Of a stretch of 34,261 nt of DNA, positions 435 through 15,405 are shown in pieces. Every line of letters starts with the position of its first letter. The stretch's first letter is position 1. Source of the stretch: Burkholderiales bacterium (lineage in GTDB: Bacteria; Pseudomonadota; Gammaproteobacteria; Burkholderiales; SG8-41); contig JAHCLD010000005.1 of the NCBI GenBank assembly GCA_026125585.1, forward strand, positions 1 through 34,261, given 5' to 3'. Below the pieces are notes generated by a model. It did no database searches. It saw only the letters and a list, made by a program, of their open reading frames with translations, and was not told where the DNA came from. A program made the translations under genes and the position numbers.

Positions 435-462
435 CACTCTGCACTCTGCACTCTGCGCTCAT
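435..462. repeat. Four-unit heptad repeat at the gatA/gatB junction
   Basis: On the plus strand this is three exact copies of CACTCTG followed by CGCTCAT. The last unit overlaps the gatA stop codon region, and the array ends 35 bp before the gatB start. CGCTCAT is the reverse complement of ATGAGCG, the unit repeated 13 times next to hslU. Slippage-prone DNA between two translationally linked genes. Confidence 0.85.
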
Positions 463-4883: not shown

Positions 4884-6771
4884 ACTGTCGATCAACCCCG
4901 GCATCGAGATCCGGGACTCGGAACGCGAACTGCAGCGCTTCCGCCGGCGGCTCGTGCTGCTCGGCATCTTCGTGCTCGCGCTGTTCGGCCTGCTGTTCCT
5001 GCGGTTCTTCTACCTGCAGGTCGTGCAGCACGGCCATTACAGCACGCTCGCCGAAGCCAACCGCATCTCGGTGCTGCCGATCGCGCCGCACCGCGGTGTC
5101 ATCGTCGACCGCAACGGCGTGCTGCTCGCACACAACTATTCGGCGTACACGCTGGAAATCACGCCGAGCAAGACGGGCAATCTCGAAGCCACCATCGACG
5201 AACTCGCCGGAATCGTGGAAATCACGCCGCGCGACCGCCGGCGCTTCCGCAAGCTGCTCGAGGAAAGCAAGCGTTTCGAAAGCCTGCCGATCCGCACCCG
5301 GCTCTCGGACGAGGAAATCGCGCGTTTCGCCGCGCACCGCTACCGCTTCCCCGGCGTCGAAGCCAGGGCGCGGCTGTTCCGCCAGTATCCGCAAGGCGAG
5401 ATCTTTTCGCATGTCGTCGGGCACATCGGCCGCATCAACCAGCGGGAAATCGAACGGCTGGAAAAGTCCGGCCGCCTGGCGAATTACCGCGGCAGCGACT
5501 ACATCGGCAAGACCGGCCTCGAGCAGAGCTACGAGGAATTCCTGCACGGCACCACCGGCGTCGAGGAAGTGGAGGTCGACTCCGGCGGCCGCGCGGTGCG
5601 CACCCTGTCGCGCACGCCGCCGGTTTCCGGCAACAACCTGGTGCTCAACATCGACGCCGGACTGCAGGAAGTCGCCTACAACGCCTTCGGCGACCGCCGC
5701 GGCGCGCTGGTCGCGATCGATCCGCGCACCGGCGGCGTGCTGGCGCTGGTCAGCAAGCCGGGCTTCGATCCCAACCTGTTCGTCGACGGGATCGACCCGC
5801 AGAGCTGGAACGAGCTCAACGGCTCCCCCGACAAGCCGCTGCTCAATCGCGCCGCCGCCGGCACCTATCCGCCGGGATCGACCTTCAAGCCGTTCATGGC
5901 GCTGGCGGCGCTGTTCTACGGCAAGCGTCCGGCGCAGCAGGTCATCAATGATCCCGGCTACTTCATGTTCGGCGGGCACCGCTTCCGCGACGGCCGGCCG
6001 GTTCCCCTCGGCGCGGTGGACATGCACCGCTCCATCGTGGTGTCCTCCGACGTCTACTACTACACGCTCGCCAACGAGCTGGGCATCGATCCGATCGCGC
6101 GCTTCATGGAAAAGTTCGGCTTCGGCAGCCGCACCGGCATCGACATTTCCGGCGAAGCCGCCGGCGTGCTGCCTTCGACGGAATGGAAAATGCGCCGCTT
6201 CTCCCGGCCGGAACAGAAGAAATGGTACGCCGGCGAAACCATCAGCGTCGGCATCGGCCAGGGCTACAACAGCTACACGCCGCTGCAGCTCGCCTCGGCC
6301 ACTGCAACGCTGGCCAACGACGGCGTGATGTACCGGCCGCACATCGTCAACCACGTCGAGGACATCCGCACCCGCGAAAAAACGCTGATCGAGCCGGAAC
6401 CGCTGCGCGACCTGGCGCTGAAGCCGGAACACCTCAAGATCGTCAAGGACGCGATGGTCGGCGTCAACAAGGAGGGCACCTCGGCGCGAGTCTTCGCCGA
6501 CGCGCCGTACGTCGCCGCCGGCAAGACCGGCACCGCGCAGGTCATCGCCATCAAGCAGGGGGAAAAATACGTCGAAAGCCGCGTCGCCGAACGGCACCGC
6601 GACCATGCCTGGTTCATCGCCTACGCGCCCGCCGACAATCCGACCATCGCACTGGCGGTGATCGCGGAAAACTCCGGCTTCGGCGCGCGCGCCGCGGCGC
6701 CCGTGGCCCGCCAGGTGCTCGACTACCACCTGCTCGGCATACGGCCGAAGCAGCCGGCGGAGACCGACTGA
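4876..6771 (+). CDS. mrdA: Penicillin-binding protein 2 (elongation transpeptidase)
   Basis: PBP2 is the class B peptidoglycan transpeptidase of the elongasome and works with RodA. The 631-aa protein has a cytoplasmic N-terminus, one membrane helix at about 24-46, and a PBP dimerisation region containing HRGVIVDRNGVLLA. The transpeptidase domain carries all three active-site motifs: S335-T-F-K338, S390-S-D392 and K550-T-G552. It begins at a GTG inside the end of mreD; its TGA overlaps the rodA ATG by one base. Nothing is missing. Confidence 0.98.
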   Translation: MSELSINPGIEIRDSERELQRFRRRLVLLGIFVLALFGLLFLRFFYLQVVQHGHYSTLAEANRISVLPIAPHRGVIVDRNGVLLAHNYSAYTLEITPSKTGNLEATIDELAGIVEITPRDRRRFRKLLEESKRFESLPIRTRLSDEEIARFAAHRYRFPGVEARARLFRQYPQGEIFSHVVGHIGRINQREIERLEKSGRLANYRGSDYIGKTGLEQSYEEFLHGTTGVEEVEVDSGGRAVRTLSRTPPVSGNNLVLNIDAGLQEVAYNAFGDRRGALVAIDPRTGGVLALVSKPGFDPNLFVDGIDPQSWNELNGSPDKPLLNRAAAGTYPPGSTFKPFMALAALFYGKRPAQQVINDPGYFMFGGHRFRDGRPVPLGAVDMHRSIVVSSDVYYYTLANELGIDPIARFMEKFGFGSRTGIDISGEAAGVLPSTEWKMRRFSRPEQKKWYAGETISVGIGQGYNSYTPLQLASATATLANDGVMYRPHIVNHVEDIRTREKTLIEPEPLRDLALKPEHLKIVKDAMVGVNKEGTSARVFADAPYVAAGKTGTAQVIAIKQGEKYVESRVAERHRDHAWFIAYAPADNPTIALAVIAENSGFGARAAAPVARQVLDYHLLGIRPKQPAETD

Positions 6772-7874
6772 TGCCGTCCATCCTGCTGCGCCTGTCGCGC
6801 TTCATGACCCGGCACATCGACGGCGTGCTGCTGTCGGCCGTTTTCCTGCTGATGTTCACCGGGCTGCTCGCGCTGCTCAGCGCCTCCAACGGCAACTACG
6901 CCAGGGTATCCGGCCAGATGATGAACATGATGGTCGCGCTCGCCGTGATGTGGGTGTTCGCCAATATTCCGCCGCACTACCTGATGCGACTGGCGGTACC
7001 GCTGTTCGCCACTGGCTGCCTGCTGCTGATCGGTGTCGCGGTGGCCGGCGACGTGGTCAACGGCGCGCGGCGCTGGCTGGACATCGGCGTCACCCGCATC
7101 CAGCCTTCGGAGCTGATGAAAATCGCCGTGCCGCTGATGCTGGCCTGGTATTTCAACCGCAACGAGGCCTCCCTGCGGCTTCGCAACTACGCCATCGCCA
7201 CGGTCATGCTGTCCGTTCCCGTCGCCCTGATCCTGCGCCAGCCCGATCTCGGCACCGCGCTGCTGATCAGCGCCAGCGGCGGCTACCTGATCTTCCTCGC
7301 CGGGCTGCCGTGGCGGATCATCGCCGCGCTCACGGCCGCCGGCCTGGCGAGCCTGCCTTTCGCCTGGTCGGCCATGCACGACTACCAGCGGCAGCGCGTG
7401 CTGACGCTGCTCGACCCTTCGGCGGACCCTCTCGGCTCGGGCTACCACACGATCCAGTCGACCATCGCCGTCGGATCCGGCGGCCTGCTCGGCAAGGGCT
7501 GGATGAACGGCACCCAGACCCATCTCGATTTCATTCCGGAGCGCACCACCGATTTCATTTTCGCGGTCTATGCCGAGGAATTCGGCCTGCTCGGCAACGC
7601 CGTGCTGCTGGCCATGTACCTGTTCCTGCTCGGCCGCGCGATGGTGATCACCGCCAACGCGCCGACGCTGTTCGCGCGGCTGCTCGCCGGATCGATCACG
7701 CTGACCTTCTTCACCTATGCCTTCGTCAACATCGGCATGGTCTCGGGCATCCTGCCCGTGGTGGGCGTGCCGCTGCCGCTGATCAGCTACGGCGGAACTT
7801 CGCTGGTTTCGATCTGTCTCGGTTTCGGTATCCTGATGAGCATCCATACCCACAAGAAGCTGGTGCAAACATGA
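6771..7874 (+). CDS. rodA: SEDS peptidoglycan glycosyltransferase RodA
   Basis: RodA polymerises lipid II into glycan strands during elongation. The ATG at 6771 overlaps the mrdA stop and gives 367 aa, the normal size. The protein is polytopic, with SEDS-family signatures GARRWLDIGVTRIQPSELMKI, QPDLGTALLI, GSGGLLGKGWMNGTQT and a C-terminal VGVPLPLISYGGTSL. In-frame sequence upstream of 6771 is the overlapping end of mrdA in another frame and is not part of the protein. The last codons overlap the rlpA start as ATGA. Confidence 0.98.
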   Translation: MPSILLRLSRFMTRHIDGVLLSAVFLLMFTGLLALLSASNGNYARVSGQMMNMMVALAVMWVFANIPPHYLMRLAVPLFATGCLLLIGVAVAGDVVNGARRWLDIGVTRIQPSELMKIAVPLMLAWYFNRNEASLRLRNYAIATVMLSVPVALILRQPDLGTALLISASGGYLIFLAGLPWRIIAALTAAGLASLPFAWSAMHDYQRQRVLTLLDPSADPLGSGYHTIQSTIAVGSGGLLGKGWMNGTQTHLDFIPERTTDFIFAVYAEEFGLLGNAVLLAMYLFLLGRAMVITANAPTLFARLLAGSITLTFFTYAFVNIGMVSGILPVVGVPLPLISYGGTSLVSICLGFGILMSIHTHKKLVQT

Positions 7875-8902
7875 CGAACAATGCAGAGTGCAGAACGCAA
7901 ATTGCAAAGTTACCTTTGGGTGCGGACACTTTGCGTTCTGCACTTTGCACTTTGCACCAAGCCGGCGCGCCCTTGATCGTGGCACTGACGCTGCTGCTCG
8001 GCGGCTGCGGGTCTACGCCGAAACCGGGCTCATCCTCCCGCGCGCCGGCATCGCCTCCGGCGCATGGCGGCGGCTACTACCTCGACGACGGCCCCGGCGC
8101 CAATGCGCCGGCCAATATCGACGCGATTCCCGACGCGGTGCCGAGAATCGAACCCCTGCACCGCGGCACGCAGCGCCCGTACACGGTGATGGGCCGCAGC
8201 TACACGCCGATGACCCGGCTGGAACCTTACAAGGCGCGCGGCATCGCCACCTGGTACGGACGGCGCTACCACGGCAAGCCGACCTCGTCCGGCGAGCCCT
8301 ACGACATGTACGCGATGACCGCGGCGCACACCGTGCTGCCGATTCCGAGTTACGTGCGCGTCACCAGCGTCGCCAACGGCCGCTCGGTGGTGGTGCGCGT
8401 CAACGACCGCGGCCCCTTCATCGACGACCGCCTGATCGACCTCTCGTACACCGCGGCATACAAGCTCGGCATCATCGGCGCCGGCAGCGGCATGGTCGAA
8501 GTGGAAAGCATCATCCCCGGCATGACACCACCTGCTGCGGAACCGCCGGTGGCGACCGTGCCGGCACCGGCCCCCGCGGTGGAAACCGCCGCGCTGCCAC
8601 CCCCGCCTCCGGCGGCGGCAACACCGCCAGCCGCAGGCGCTGCGCCAGCCGTGACGGCACCCGCAGTCGCAGGCGGCACCTGGCTGCAGTTCGGTGCCTT
8701 CGGCGTGCAGGCCAATGCCGAGACCTATCTCGCGCGCCTGCAGAGCCAGGCCGACTGGCTGGCCGGCACGTTGCGCATCCACCACAACGACGGCATCTAC
8801 CGCGTGCAGGCGGGCCCCTATGCCAGCGATGCCGCCGCGCGCGAAGCGGCGGAACGCGCCGGCCAGGCACTGGGCGCAAAACCGGTGGTCGTCAGCCGCT
8901 GA
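7871..8902 (+). CDS. rlpA: Septal ring lytic transglycosylase-type lipoprotein RlpA (SPOR domain)
   Basis: RlpA-family lipoproteins bind, and in some species cleave, denuded glycan strands in the periplasm. The ATG at 7871 overlaps the rodA stop and gives 343 aa. The lipoprotein signal is unusual: about 32 residues precede the hydrophobic stretch APLIVALTLLLGGC with lipid Cys at 46, and those residues are encoded by an inverted heptad repeat. The double-psi beta-barrel follows (ATWYGRRYHGKPTSSGE, TAAHTVLP, NDRGPF with the putative catalytic His and Asp). A Pro/Ala linker and a C-terminal SPOR domain (WLQFGAFGVQANAE, YRVQAGPY) complete it. It ends six bases from the convergent DUF1775 gene. 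Confidence 0.93.
   Translation: MTNNAECRTQIAKLPLGADTLRSALCTLHQAGAPLIVALTLLLGGCGSTPKPGSSSRAPASPPAHGGGYYLDDGPGANAPANIDAIPDAVPRIEPLHRGTQRPYTVMGRSYTPMTRLEPYKARGIATWYGRRYHGKPTSSGEPYDMYAMTAAHTVLPIPSYVRVTSVANGRSVVVRVNDRGPFIDDRLIDLSYTAAYKLGIIGAGSGMVEVESIIPGMTPPAAEPPVATVPAPAPAVETAALPPPPPAAATPPAAGAAPAVTAPAVAGGTWLQFGAFGVQANAETYLARLQSQADWLAGTLRIHHNDGIYRVQAGPYASDAAAREAAERAGQALGAKPVVVSR
7882..7949. repeat. Inverted repeat built of heptads inside the 5' end of rlpA
   Basis: The left arm is 7882-7901 (TGCAGAGTGCAGAACGCAAA) and the right arm 7930-7949 is its reverse complement with one mismatch (19/20). The loop is 28 bases. The arms contain AGAGTGC / AAAGTGC heptad words, and the right arm continues with one more GCACTTT-type unit to about 7956. 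It lies just after the rodA/rlpA overlap and is read as rlpA codons 4-29. Confidence 0.85.
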
Positions 8903-11571: not shown

Positions 11572-12045
11572 TCAGTGGTTGTGATGGCCCCTGGCGGACT
11601 GCCCTTTGATGTCGCGCACTTCGACCGACAGTGAGACGGTCTCGCGCTTCTTGTCCGCCAGTTCGAAGGTCAGTTGCAGCGGGACCTTGTCGCCGGGGTT
11701 CAGGGGTTTCTGCAACTGCATCAGCATCACGTGATAACCGCCGGAAGCGAGCTTCACGCTCCTGCCGGCGGGAATGTCGATGCCGGCGACGGGAAACATT
11801 TTCATCACGCCGTTCTCCATGCGCATGTTGTGCACCTCGGAGACCTTCGCGACCGGACTGGACACGGCAACGAGGCGAGCGTCGGTTTTGGCGGTCAGTT
11901 CCATGAACGCACCGCTTGCAGTCTGGCCCTGGACGGTGCCGCGAATCCATGCGTCCCTGACCGTCACGGTCTGCGCCTGCGCGCTCGCCGCGCACAGCAA
12001 GCCCAGCAACACGCCGCAGGATTTCAGTAGAGAAGCCGAAATCAT
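11572..12045 (-). CDS. Periplasmic copper chaperone PCu(A)C
   Basis: PCu(A)C proteins carry Cu(I) in the periplasm, mainly to the CuA/CuB centres of cytochrome oxidases. The 157-aa product has a signal peptide (cleavage near SAQAQ, residue 25) and the full metal motif: His72, Met83, His105 and Met107, with the exact H-x10-M-x21-H-x-M spacing. The tail GHHNH adds further His. It is first in a minus-strand unit with the receptor and DUF1775 genes. AAAGGA precedes the ATG inside an AT-rich leader that is duplicated upstream of the DUF3299 gene. Confidence 0.94.
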   Translation of the reverse strand: MISASLLKSCGVLLGLLCAASAQAQTVTVRDAWIRGTVQGQTASGAFMELTAKTDARLVAVSSPVAKVSEVHNMRMENGVMKMFPVAGIDIPAGRSVKLASGGYHVMLMQLQKPLNPGDKVPLQLTFELADKKRETVSLSVEVRDIKGQSARGHHNH

Positions 12046-12081
12046 AAAAAATCCTTTAAAAACAAATACTTATATAATACG
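12046..12081 (-). promoter_or_regulatory. AT-rich leader of the copper operon, shared with the DUF3299 gene
   Basis: On the minus strand this 36-nt block reads a 19-base motif (GTATTATATAAGTATTTG preceded by C) followed by a T-rich ribosome-site segment and the ATG. The leader at 18585-18620 matches it at 30 of 36 positions with identical spacing to its ATG. A small hairpin (CCCGC-ATTC-GCGGG) lies just upstream, about 12082-12096. Likely a promoter or operator; no clear -35 box is found. Confidence 0.6.
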
Positions 12082-12566: not shown

Positions 12567-13880
12567 TCAGAGCACGTAACGCGCGAGATCCTCGCTCTGC
12601 GCCAGGTCCTTCAGCCGCGCGTCGACGTAGGCGGCGTCGACGGTCACCGTTTCCCTGCGCCGGCCGGCCTCGAACGATACGTCCTCGAGCAGGCGCTCCA
12701 TCACCGTGTGCAGCCGCCGCGCGCCGATGTTCTCGGTGCGCTCGTTGACCTGCCAGGCGATTTCGGCGAGCCGCTTCACCGCGTCCGGCGTGAACACCAG
12801 ATTGACGTCCTCGGTTTTGATCAGCGCCTCGTATTGCCGGATCAGGCAGGCGTCGGTGCTGGTCAGGATGCGCTCGAAATCGTCGACGGTCAGGTTCTGC
12901 AGCTCGACGCGGATCGGCAGCCGTCCCTGCAGTTCCGGGATCAGGTCCGAGGGCTTCGACAGGTGGAAGGCGCCGCTGGCGATGAACAGGATGTGATCGG
13001 TCCTGATCATGCCGTACTTGGTGGTCACCGTCGTGCCCTCGACCAGCGGCAGCAGGTCGCGTTGCACGCCCTGGCGCGAGACGTCGGCGCCCGACATTTC
13101 CGAACGCGAGGCCACCTTGTCGATCTCGTCGATGAACACAATGCCGTTCTGCTCGACGTTGGCGACCGCGGCGATTTTCAGTTCCTCGTCGTTGACGCGC
13201 TTCGCCGCCTCCTCGTCGATCAGCTGCTTCATCGCCTCGGCGATTTTCAGCTTGCGCGTCCGGCGCCGCCCGGCGCCGAGGTTCTGGAACATGCCCTGCA
13301 ACTGCGAGGTCAGGTCTTCCATGCCGGGCGGCGTCAGGATTTCCATCTGCGCCGGCGCGGCGGCGACCTCGATCTCGATTTCGCGCTCGTCGAGCGCGCC
13401 TTCGCGCAGCATCTTGCGGAATTTCTGGCGCGTCGCCGACTCGCTGTCGGCGGCGGTGTCGCGCGCCGGCGTCAGCAGCGCGTCGAGCACGCGCTCCTCG
13501 GCGCTGTCCTGCGCCTGGTGCTTGACGCGGCGCATCGCCTCGACACGCGCGTCCTTGATCGCCGCGTCGACCAGGTCGCGGATGATGGTGTCGACGTCGC
13601 GCCCGACGTAGCCCACTTCCGTGAACTTGGTCGCCTCGACCTTGATGAACGGCGCATTCGCGAGCCGCGCCAGGCGCCGCGCGATCTCGGTCTTGCCGAC
13701 GCCGGTCGGCCCGATCATCAGGATGTTCTTCGGCGTGATCTCCTGGCGCAGCGGCTCCGGCACCTGCTGCCGCCGCCAGCGGTTGCGCAGCGCGATGGCC
13801 ACCGCGCGCTTGGCGGCGTTCTGCCCGACGATGTGCTTGTCGAGCTCGTGGACGATTTCCTGCGGGGTCATGGGGGTCAT
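12567..13880 (-). CDS. hslU: ATP-dependent protease ATPase subunit HslU
   Basis: HslU (ClpY) is the AAA+ unfoldase that feeds substrates to the HslV peptidase. The 437-aa protein has [17 protein letters not shown], Walker A GPTGVGKT at 57-64, the pore loop in GYVGRDVD, the intermediate I-domain, Walker [11 protein letters not shown], and the sensor-2 region [13 protein letters not shown]. The C-terminal EDLARYVL is the tail that inserts into HslV. Two starts are possible, 13880 (MTPMTPQ) and 13871. Neither has a Shine-Dalgarno sequence, because 13 copies of a heptamer abut the first ATG, so coupling to hslV or another mechanism may start translation. Confidence 0.97.
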
Positions 13881-13881
13881 G

Positions 13882-13972
13882 ATGAGCGATGAGCGATGAG
13901 CGATGAGCGATGAGCGATGAGCGATGAGCGATGAGCGATGAGCGATGAGCGATGAGCGATGAGCGATGAGCG
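13882..13972. repeat. Perfect tandem array: 13 copies of the 7-bp unit ATGAGCG
   Basis: The plus strand reads ATGAGCG thirteen times without a mismatch over 91 bases, ending one base from the hslU start codon. In the hslU direction the unit is CGCTCAT. It fills most of the 145-bp hslV-hslU gap and removes any ribosome-binding site from its normal place. Seven is not a multiple of three, and perfect copies favour slippage, so copy number may vary between strains. Confidence 0.97.
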
Positions 13973-14025
13973 AATGGACCCCGAACGGCAGTCTTCGTTC
14001 GGTTCTACGGCTGACCGCTTGCCTT

Positions 14026-14568
14026 TTATTCCAGCACTTCGATCAGGTGCTGCTGGTTGGTATAGATGCAGAGATCGCCGGCGATTTCCAGCGATTTCTT
14101 GACGATGTCAGCCGGCGCGAGATCGGTGTTCTCGAGCAGCGCCCGCGCCGCGGACTGCGCGTAGGCGCCGCCGCTGCCGATGGCGACGAGGCCGTGCTCC
14201 GGCTCCAGCACGTCGCCGTTGCCGGTGATGACCAGCGAGTGCTCGCGGTCGGCCACCGACAGCATGGCCTCCAGCCGGCGCAGCATGCGGTCGGTGCGCC
14301 AGTCCTTCGCCAGTTCCACCGCGGAACGCATCAGGTTGCCCTGGTGTTTTTCCAGTTTCGATTCGAAACGCTCGAACAGCGTAAAGGCGTCGGCGGTACC
14401 GCCGGCGAAGCCGGCGAGGATGCGGTCCTGGTAGAGGCGGCGGATCTTGCGCGCGGTGGCCTTGATCACGATGTTGCCCAGCGTGACCTGGCCGTCGCCG
14501 CCGAGCGCCACGCGGTTGCCGCGACGGACGGAAAGAATGGTGGTGCCGTGAAACACTGCGTCGCTCAT
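14026..14568 (-). CDS. hslV: ATP-dependent protease peptidase subunit HslV
   Basis: HslV (ClpQ) is the N-terminal-threonine peptidase of the HslVU heat-shock protease. The 180-aa product starts MSDAVFHG and is expected to be processed to expose the Thr at position 9 (TTILSVRRG). Family motifs include [31 protein letters not shown] and the C-terminal [13 protein letters not shown]. It is transcribed from a sigma-32-like promoter at 14641-14668 and followed by hslU across a repeat-filled gap. Confidence 0.97.
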
Positions 14569-14640
14569 GGGATTCCAAGCTGTTGATTATTGGGAGGCAT
14601 TCAGAAAATGCGGCGAAGAGGACCCGGCCTGCACGAATCC

Positions 14641-14668
14641 AGATGAGGGCGGCGGCAGCCGTTTCAAC
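14641..14668 (-). promoter_or_regulatory. Heat-shock (sigma-32 type) promoter of hslVU
   Basis: On the minus strand GTTGAAA (14662-14668) is followed by exactly 13 bases and CCTCATCT (14641-14648). This matches the sigma-32 consensus CTTGAAA-N13-CCCCATNT at 6/7 and 6 of 7 defined positions. Transcription would start near 14634, giving a leader of about 65 nt before the hslV ATG. The regulon fit (HslVU is a classic heat-shock protease) supports it. Confidence 0.7.
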
Positions 14669-14679
14669 CCTGCCGCGAA

Positions 14680-15405
14680 TCAGGATTCCAGCCGGAACGA
14701 TACCGGCACACGCACCCAGGCTTCAATGTTTTCCGCACCGCGCCGCGCCGGGACGAAACGCCAGCCTTTCACCGCGTCCAGCGCCGCATGGTCCAGCACG
14801 TGCGATCGGCTCGACTGATCGAGTTCGACCTTCAGCGGCGTGCCGTCGCGGCCGACCAGCACGCGCAGCATCACCGTGCCCTCCTCGCCGCCGCGCCGCG
14901 CGGCCGCCGGATACACCGGTGGCGGATTGCGCAGGTATGCCGCCGTGAATGCCGGTGGCGTGACTGTCACCGGCGCCGGCGCGGCGGGTGCCGGGGTCCG
15001 CGCAGCCATTGCGGGCGGTGGCGGGGAAATGCCGTGTGCAGGCGTATCTTCGACCGGCGGGGACGGTGTGGACAGCACAGGCACTGCGGCGGCAACGGGC
15101 TCAGACCGGGCCGGCGGCAAAGAATCCGCCTGCGATTTCACGGCGGGTGGCGACGGTACGTTGCGAATTCGCGGCCACGGCGCGGCGTTTGCGACGACAT
15201 CGGCGGTGTCGGCCACCACCATCACCACGTCGAGCACCGGCGCCACTGCATGCATCGGCGGCGGCGATCGCCAGCCCGGCAACCACAGCAGCAGCATCGC
15301 ATGCAGGGCGACGCTGGCCAGCAGACAGATGAACAGGGTGCGCCGGGACAGACGCGGAAAATCGGCCATGGCGGGAATCGGCTCAGGCACAGGGAGAGCC
15401 GGCAT
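14680..15405 (-). CDS. tonB: Energy transducer TonB
   Basis: TonB spans the periplasm and transmits proton-motive energy from ExbB-ExbD to outer-membrane receptors. The 241-aa product has an N-terminal membrane anchor (LFICLLASVALHAMLLLWLP), a Pro/Ala-rich linker, and a C-terminal TonB domain (PPVYPAAARRGGEEGTVMLR, ALDAVKGWRFVPARRG). The start could be 15405 or 15369 (MADFPRLS); neither has a clear ribosome site. It lies downstream of znuD past a terminator-like hairpin, and no exbB/exbD adjoins it. A second tonB lies at 26160-26804, so the window carries two. Confidence 0.92.
   Translation of the reverse strand: MPALPVPEPIPAMADFPRLSRRTLFICLLASVALHAMLLLWLPGWRSPPPMHAVAPVLDVVMVVADTADVVANAAPWPRIRNVPSPPAVKSQADSLPPARSEPVAAAVPVLSTPSPPVEDTPAHGISPPPPAMAARTPAPAAPAPVTVTPPAFTAAYLRNPPPVYPAAARRGGEEGTVMLRVLVGRDGTPLKVELDQSSRSHVLDHAALDAVKGWRFVPARRGAENIEAWVRVPVSFRLES

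Follow-up and report, generated by a model that had tools for sequence, protein, structure and literature searches.

A thirteen-copy heptamer array before the hslU start codon and related intercistronic inverted repeats in a Burkholderiales genome and its relatives

Introduction

In a Burkholderiales bacterium (GenBank assembly GCA_026125585.1), the gene hslU, which follows hslV, is preceded by a flawless array of heptamers instead of a recognizable Shine-Dalgarno (SD) sequence. What is this array, how did it arise, and what does it mean for the translation of hslU? The locus lies on contig JAHCLD010000005.1, in the 34,261-nucleotide stretch of DNA that was analysed as a whole (the window, to which plain coordinates refer). 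Compared genomes are denoted by G or L numbers and their contigs by C numbers; G000 is the genome of the window itself.

Results

The array between hslV and hslU

Thirteen perfect ATGAGCG units occupy positions 13882-13972 of the plus strand (91 bp); TRF calls a 7-mer at 13881-13973, with 13.3 copies, 100% matches and a score of 186. The array lies between hslV (14026-14568, minus strand, 180 aa; NCBIfam equivalogs NF003964/TIGR03692) and hslU (12567-13880, minus strand, 437 aa; NCBIfam equivalog TIGR00390), and in the sense direction of these genes, on the minus strand, it reads CGCTCAT x13, the start-proximal or C-form arm of the element described below. A single base (13881) separates it from the ATG of hslU. 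There are two in-frame ATG codons, at 13880 and 13871, the former being the likely start, since M-x-x-MTP is common among relatives. Both the sequence and TRF thus confirm the thirteen flawless heptamers, one base off the start codon, that were reported in the initial annotation; its statement that they fill the hslV-hslU gap does not hold, as the array covers 91 of the 145 nt (13881-14025), or 63%, and leaves a spacer of 53 nt. By sequence comparison, this remainder (13973-14025, minus strand) comprises the spacer and an eroded stop-proximal arm, AAGGCAAGCGGTCAGC..., then ACCGAAC...GTTCGGGGTCCATT.

The assembly is a fragmented metagenome-assembled genome (MAG; 74% complete, 266 contigs), with the array in contig 212, and within it the triple-unit ATGAGCG pattern is unique to the hslVU array (11 overlapping registers; 0 for the reversed-pattern control). 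A scan of positions 13600-14760 found no promoter-like sites and one terminator-like site, on the plus strand, at chance level, and an Rfam covariance-model search of the window gave no match.

The hslV-hslU gap in related genomes

The hslV-hslU gaps of about 100 beta- and gammaproteobacterial genomes were compared, of which 97 were usable. A period-7 array is present in 24 of the 97 (one of them, L039, being the same genome as L011), while periods 5, 6 and 8-11 give 0-3; the median gap is 94 nt with an array and 26 nt without. Among the nearest relatives, the word of the window, CGCTCAT, recurs in a sister species, G019, in about 6 copies vs 13 in the window. G001 has about 10-11 copies of CGCTCAC, G010 a CGCTCAC array running off the contig end, and G014 a mixed ATTACCA/AGTCACC array; CACCGTT, CGCTTAT, CCAATCA and CTCACGC are the words of other family members. 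Recent growth or slippage, as proposed from the perfection of the copies, fits these differences in number between species (13; about 6 in G019; about 10-11, of CGCTCAC, in G001), one genome per species being compared.

In many relatives reverse-complement heptamers also directly follow the hslV stop, so that the whole gap is an inverted repeat, and hslVU arms match their own partner better than another's (permutation p = 5e-5). The copy in the window, with its left arm eroded, has an own-arm match of 6, which is background level. The junction GTTCRGRGTCCATTYGCTCA is common to the hslVU gaps of G000 and G019, two other loci of G001 and one locus of G004; its recurrence at loci other than hslVU implies at least one transfer of spacer and array between loci, by recombination or mobility. 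Periodic inverted repeats of other kinds (CACAGAGGC, CGCAGATA and GACGCAAA types) were seen in the hslVU gaps of L019, L023 and L064 and at G001 C36 334265, and are apparently parallel families with other periods.

The gene pair itself is not universal in the genus: hslU is absent from 11 of 20 genus-mates (best matches at ClpX level), ten of these being at least 93% complete. Regions syntenic to 12567-14568 were examined for hslVU in G018, G006, G020, G012, G013 and G004; in several genus-mates the flanking genes stand without hslVU between them, which suggests that the pair may have been lost in place.

The start region of hslU

No SD match of 3 nt or longer is found in the -20 to -4 region of hslU. 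The missing SD sequence had already been pointed out in the initial annotation, and the observation extends to other array-bearing genomes: of the 24 genomes with a period-7 array, 2 have a match of at least 4 nt ahead of hslU, vs 41 of the 73 that lack an array (Fisher p = 3e-5, a statistic that ignores kinship). This contrast is confounded by relatedness, because the counts in the window's own family are 0 of 15 with an array and 2 of 5 without. The further claim that the array replaced a ribosome-binding site is weakened: array-free members of the family have overlapping or 15-nt gaps, or merely a 4-nt SD match (2 of 5), and therefore the ancestral hslU may have used coupling and not an SD sequence.

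Among 366 genes, hslU ranks at the 84th percentile for accessibility of the start region, which is less structured than that of about 80% of genes. This is compatible with SD-independent initiation, by which, we infer, HslU is probably translated. A hairpin function of the hslVU copy was considered and rejected, since the gap folds less than shuffled sequence (z = +1.2 and +2.6 in two computations).

Other arrays in the window

A second, intact element lies at 7875-7972 (plus strand) between rodA (6771-7874), which directly precedes it, and an rlpA-like gene. Its G-form arm (7882-7908, plus strand; TGCAGAG/TGCAAA words of the GTGCARA type) and C-form arm (7932-7957, plus strand; CTTTGCA words) are predicted to form a hairpin (z about -4.5). 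A third array (435-460, minus strand; CACTCTG on the plus strand, that is, a GTGCAGA-type G-form) adjoins the stop of a minus-strand gene (462-1919), directly 3' of it.

Orthologous rodA-rlpA gaps carry the words GTGAGGA (G014), RTGAGYG (G001), RTGARCG (G019) and GGATTGA (G018, G006), and the gap is without an element, and usually shorter, in G009, G020, G012, G013, G015, G011 and G007. At both the hslVU and the rodA-rlpA site, then, the place is kept and the heptamer word differs between species. A joint change of word in both arms is indicated mainly by hslVU (p = 5e-5), because rodA-rlpA, tested by itself for arm matching, falls short of significance (p = 0.15, n = 7).

Two further repeats were noticed. 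The 26-mer GACAAGGGCACACTTGAAGCGAAGCA, in either orientation, occurs beside heptamer arrays at unrelated loci (rodA-rlpA gaps of L318, L321, L313, L315 and L288; G019 C15 ~239810) and is another dispersed repeat. The AT-rich motif CCTTTAAAAACAAATACTTA(TATAATACG), at 12053-12072 of the window (extending over about 12044-12080), recurs in 17 of the 21 genomes of the genus, with 1-6 occurrences in each and none for the reversed control; it is a dispersed conserved motif of intergenic or promoter-like kind.

Heptamer elements genome-wide

The genome-wide counts rest on pattern searches and sampled stretches, pattern counts being overlapping registers and not elements, and gene boundaries are those of home-made gene calls. 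In 400 kb sampled from G019, of the same genus, 26 period-7 segments were intergenic and 7 were not, a bias that periods 5, 6 and 9-11 did not show. Most of the period-7 segments formed inverted pairs, each spanning an intergenic stretch of some 95-100 nt whose two neighbouring genes run in one direction; this genome also has strong lag-7 segments of the CCGGACTCCGG type, which are a different repeat and were set aside. Across the genus and family, pattern matches far outnumbered those of the reversed-pattern control, as in G018 (397 vs 2), G014 (92 vs 2) and G001 (93 vs 1). The pattern count was zero in G011, G012, G015 and G017, and in other families of the order it was nearly zero, G059 excepted. 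Convergent inverted pairs gave 117 matches for GTRANTG and 34 for RTGARYG (controls 0), and the pattern search found no divergent GTRANTG pairs. The class is patchy, as convergent pairs occur in 11 of 274 class-level genomes, that of the window included (two with a control match); G026 has many arrays, yet no inverted pair by the pattern used.

A first sample of the window's own genome (234 kb) held such arrays inside the window alone, possibly because most other sampled contigs were short. A targeted search added about 20 places, and the genome has three or more intact pairs written in the ATGAGCG dialect (C46, C157, C207). An apparently orthologous element at G000 C207 ~2669-2725, G001 C36 ~388777 and G019 C14 ~141162 has a spacer that looks inverted between species (CCCCGGGGTTGCTTG vs AAACAACCCGGGG), which is what recombination between the arms would produce. 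Contigs were also seen to end inside or beside CGCTCAC arrays (G001 C33 at both ends, G010 C30 at its end); array lengths in MAGs may therefore be underestimated, and heptamer elements break short-read assemblies.

Members of the class are typically convergent inverted pairs and sit where two genes of one direction are about 70-180 nt apart. In G018, 13 of 13 strong period-7 gaps lie between co-directional genes, vs 166 of 213 of all gaps; one convergent gene pair with such repeats, in G001, is an exception. The G-form stands ahead of the C-form in 17 of 17 gaps where both arms scored, and the match to the own arm beats that to the arms of other elements (p = 0.005 in G018, p = 0.0002 in G019), own-arm matching being also seen in ordinary gaps because of other hairpins there. 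Elements have a mean folding z of -3.2, and the remaining co-directional gaps one of -1.4. Some gaps have one arm alone (G001C36 329949, G018C12 68346), so a hairpin is not required. A short left and a long right arm, 0-12 nt from the ATG, as at hslU, were found at G018C11 86712, C16 69916 and C17 10509; the excess of right-arm over left-arm length is weak and suggestive (Wilcoxon p = 0.07).

Comparison with known repeats

The closest parallels come from two known heptamer systems. The GGGAATC repeats of Xanthomonas have a like placement and form convergent pairs (Rehm et al., 2015, PMC4692102); with this class, which includes Nostoc GGGGA(C/T)T, the elements described here share the 7-nt tandem unit, the intergenic position between aligned genes and, save for the hslVU copy without a partner arm, the convergent pairs with the G-form 3' of the stop. 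They differ in the word: the Xanthomonas class has a G-quadruplex-capable GGGANTN, whereas ATGAGCG and its relatives are without GGG, and no G-quadruplex is expected, because the words here (RTGANNG, GTRANTG, GTGCARA) have no run of three or more G. Unlike the repeats of Rehm et al., the elements also have several words per genome, a given site can differ in word between species, and start-side arms reach 13 or more copies beside the start codon. The second parallel is TAACTGA, found in marine Beggiatoaceae, Cyanobacteria and Bacteroidetes directly 5' of start codons where an SD sequence would be expected, with SD sequences in about 10% of the regions bearing it and highly variable array length (MacGregor, 2015, PMC4679880). 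The hslU array likewise adjoins a start codon without an SD sequence; its word, however, is not TAACTGA, which is one fixed word, almost exclusively in direct repeats (one indirect in BOGUAY) of typically 2-6 copies.

Other repeats are less similar. Heptanucleotide long SSRs, for which slippage was proposed, are rich in Burkholderia and other prokaryotes (Mrazek et al., 2007, as cited in PMC4679880), and the 7-nt period is favoured there too, but as cited this is a general census and not a description of an element architecture. REPINs (Bertels and Rainey, 2011, PMC3116915) are likewise dispersed extragenic inverted doublets that form hairpins, but have a conserved REP core (16-mers were used there) and an associated RAYT, whereas here a 7-nt period with changing words is found, and words and spacers vary between loci. 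The heptanucleotides of Geobacter metallireducens (PMC2700814) also form dispersed tandem arrays, some classes of them paired, but with the fixed words GGACCGG and MTYCTGA, in four or five copies, and also within genes. SD-less heptamer leaders (Beggiatoaceae TAACTGA) and inverted heptamer pairs (Xanthomonas GGGAATC) are thus already published; new relative to known heptamer repeats are words that form no G-quadruplex, several of them per genome, sites that stay in place while their word changes, and the very long start-side arms. We found no earlier description of such elements in Betaproteobacteria in the open-access literature.

Discussion

Origin of the hslU array

Because period-7 arrays recur both at hslVU and genome-wide as convergent pairs, the hslU array is best read as an expanded element arm. 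We consider it likely that slippage expanded the start-proximal arm of a heptamer inverted-repeat element lying between the two cistrons, and that the partner arm has eroded. The architecture and orientation rule of these elements, their genome-wide occurrence, the match between the two arms of one element and a word that changes while its place stays fixed are observed. In such an element, the stop of the upstream gene is followed by G-form heptamers (RTGANNG, GTRANTG, GTGCARA, GGATTGA or similar), a spacer and the C-form, their reverse complement, which often reaches to 0-15 nt from the next start codon. Arrays would grow through replication slippage, and the arms would stay alike via strand switching between them or selection for an mRNA hairpin. 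In the lineage of the window, the start-proximal arm at hslVU presumably reached 13 perfect copies while the other decayed, and for this reason the hslVU transcript no longer folds. The outcome for hslU would be an SD-less, pyrimidine-rich and fairly unstructured leader.

The initial annotation suggested that changing copy number could tune HslU relative to HslV, as a contingency-locus-like setting for a heat-shock protease; in a reading of this kind, slippage alters array length and the variability is selected. A long, perfect, slippage-prone array does abut the hslU start codon, and related species do differ in copies (13, about 6, about 11). However, an identical kind of element lies between many unrelated gene pairs, roughly half of the genus is without hslVU, gaining or losing 7 nt in a leader leaves the reading frame of hslU untouched, and Rehm et al. 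(2015, PMC4692102) found comparable heptamers unlinked to phase-variable functions and judged phase variation unlikely. The generality of the class and the loss of hslU from 11 of 20 genus-mates leave dedicated HslU tuning unsupported, and we regard it as very unlikely. Most likely the number of copies is noise that is tolerated, altering HslU level modestly at most, and no dedicated switch.

A mobile hairpin of REPIN or MITE type, copied by a transposase, with the hslVU copy as one insertion with a degraded arm, would account for the GTTCRGRGTCCATTYGCTCA junction and array shared by hslVU (G000, G019) and other loci (two in G001, one in G004), for the presence or absence of an element, by genome, at the rodA-rlpA gap, and for hairpin-forming inverted pairs that resemble REPINs (PMC3116915). 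It is nevertheless unlikely: within one genome most loci have spacers of their own, and a single site can carry different words in different species, while a REPIN is built on a conserved REP core. It is rather improbable, too, that array RNA is a single-strand protein-binding target by which array-bearing genes are co-regulated. The position near start codons without an SD sequence, as proposed for the TAACTGA repeats of Beggiatoaceae (PMC4679880), and the recurrence of several related words within one genome agree with such a target; the words differ, however, between genomes, between loci of one genome and between species at one site, and single-strand binding needs no mirror-matched arms such as these. 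That the array is an artefact of assembling a fragmented short-read MAG is hardly credible: the genome is incomplete, and in G001 and G010 contigs break off within such arrays, whose lengths may be wrong, but independent assemblies of related species show a like array at the same place. A typical short read can span 91 bp.

Implications for the family

With the reading as an expanded element arm, the hslU array becomes a visible instance of a widespread, little-described repeat class. Its elements leave co-transcribed genes without an SD sequence, which bears on the translation of these genes, and if the arms change their word jointly at a kept site, they must be maintained by replication (strand switching) or by hairpin selection. 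As a tentative and rather doubtful generalization, heptamer hairpins that renew themselves might sit at operon junctions in the window's family: their position would be inherited, both arms would change word together, and the start-side arm could turn into a long translation leader without an SD sequence. If true, this would be a general route to adjustable non-SD leaders for co-transcribed genes, with hslU as an extreme case.
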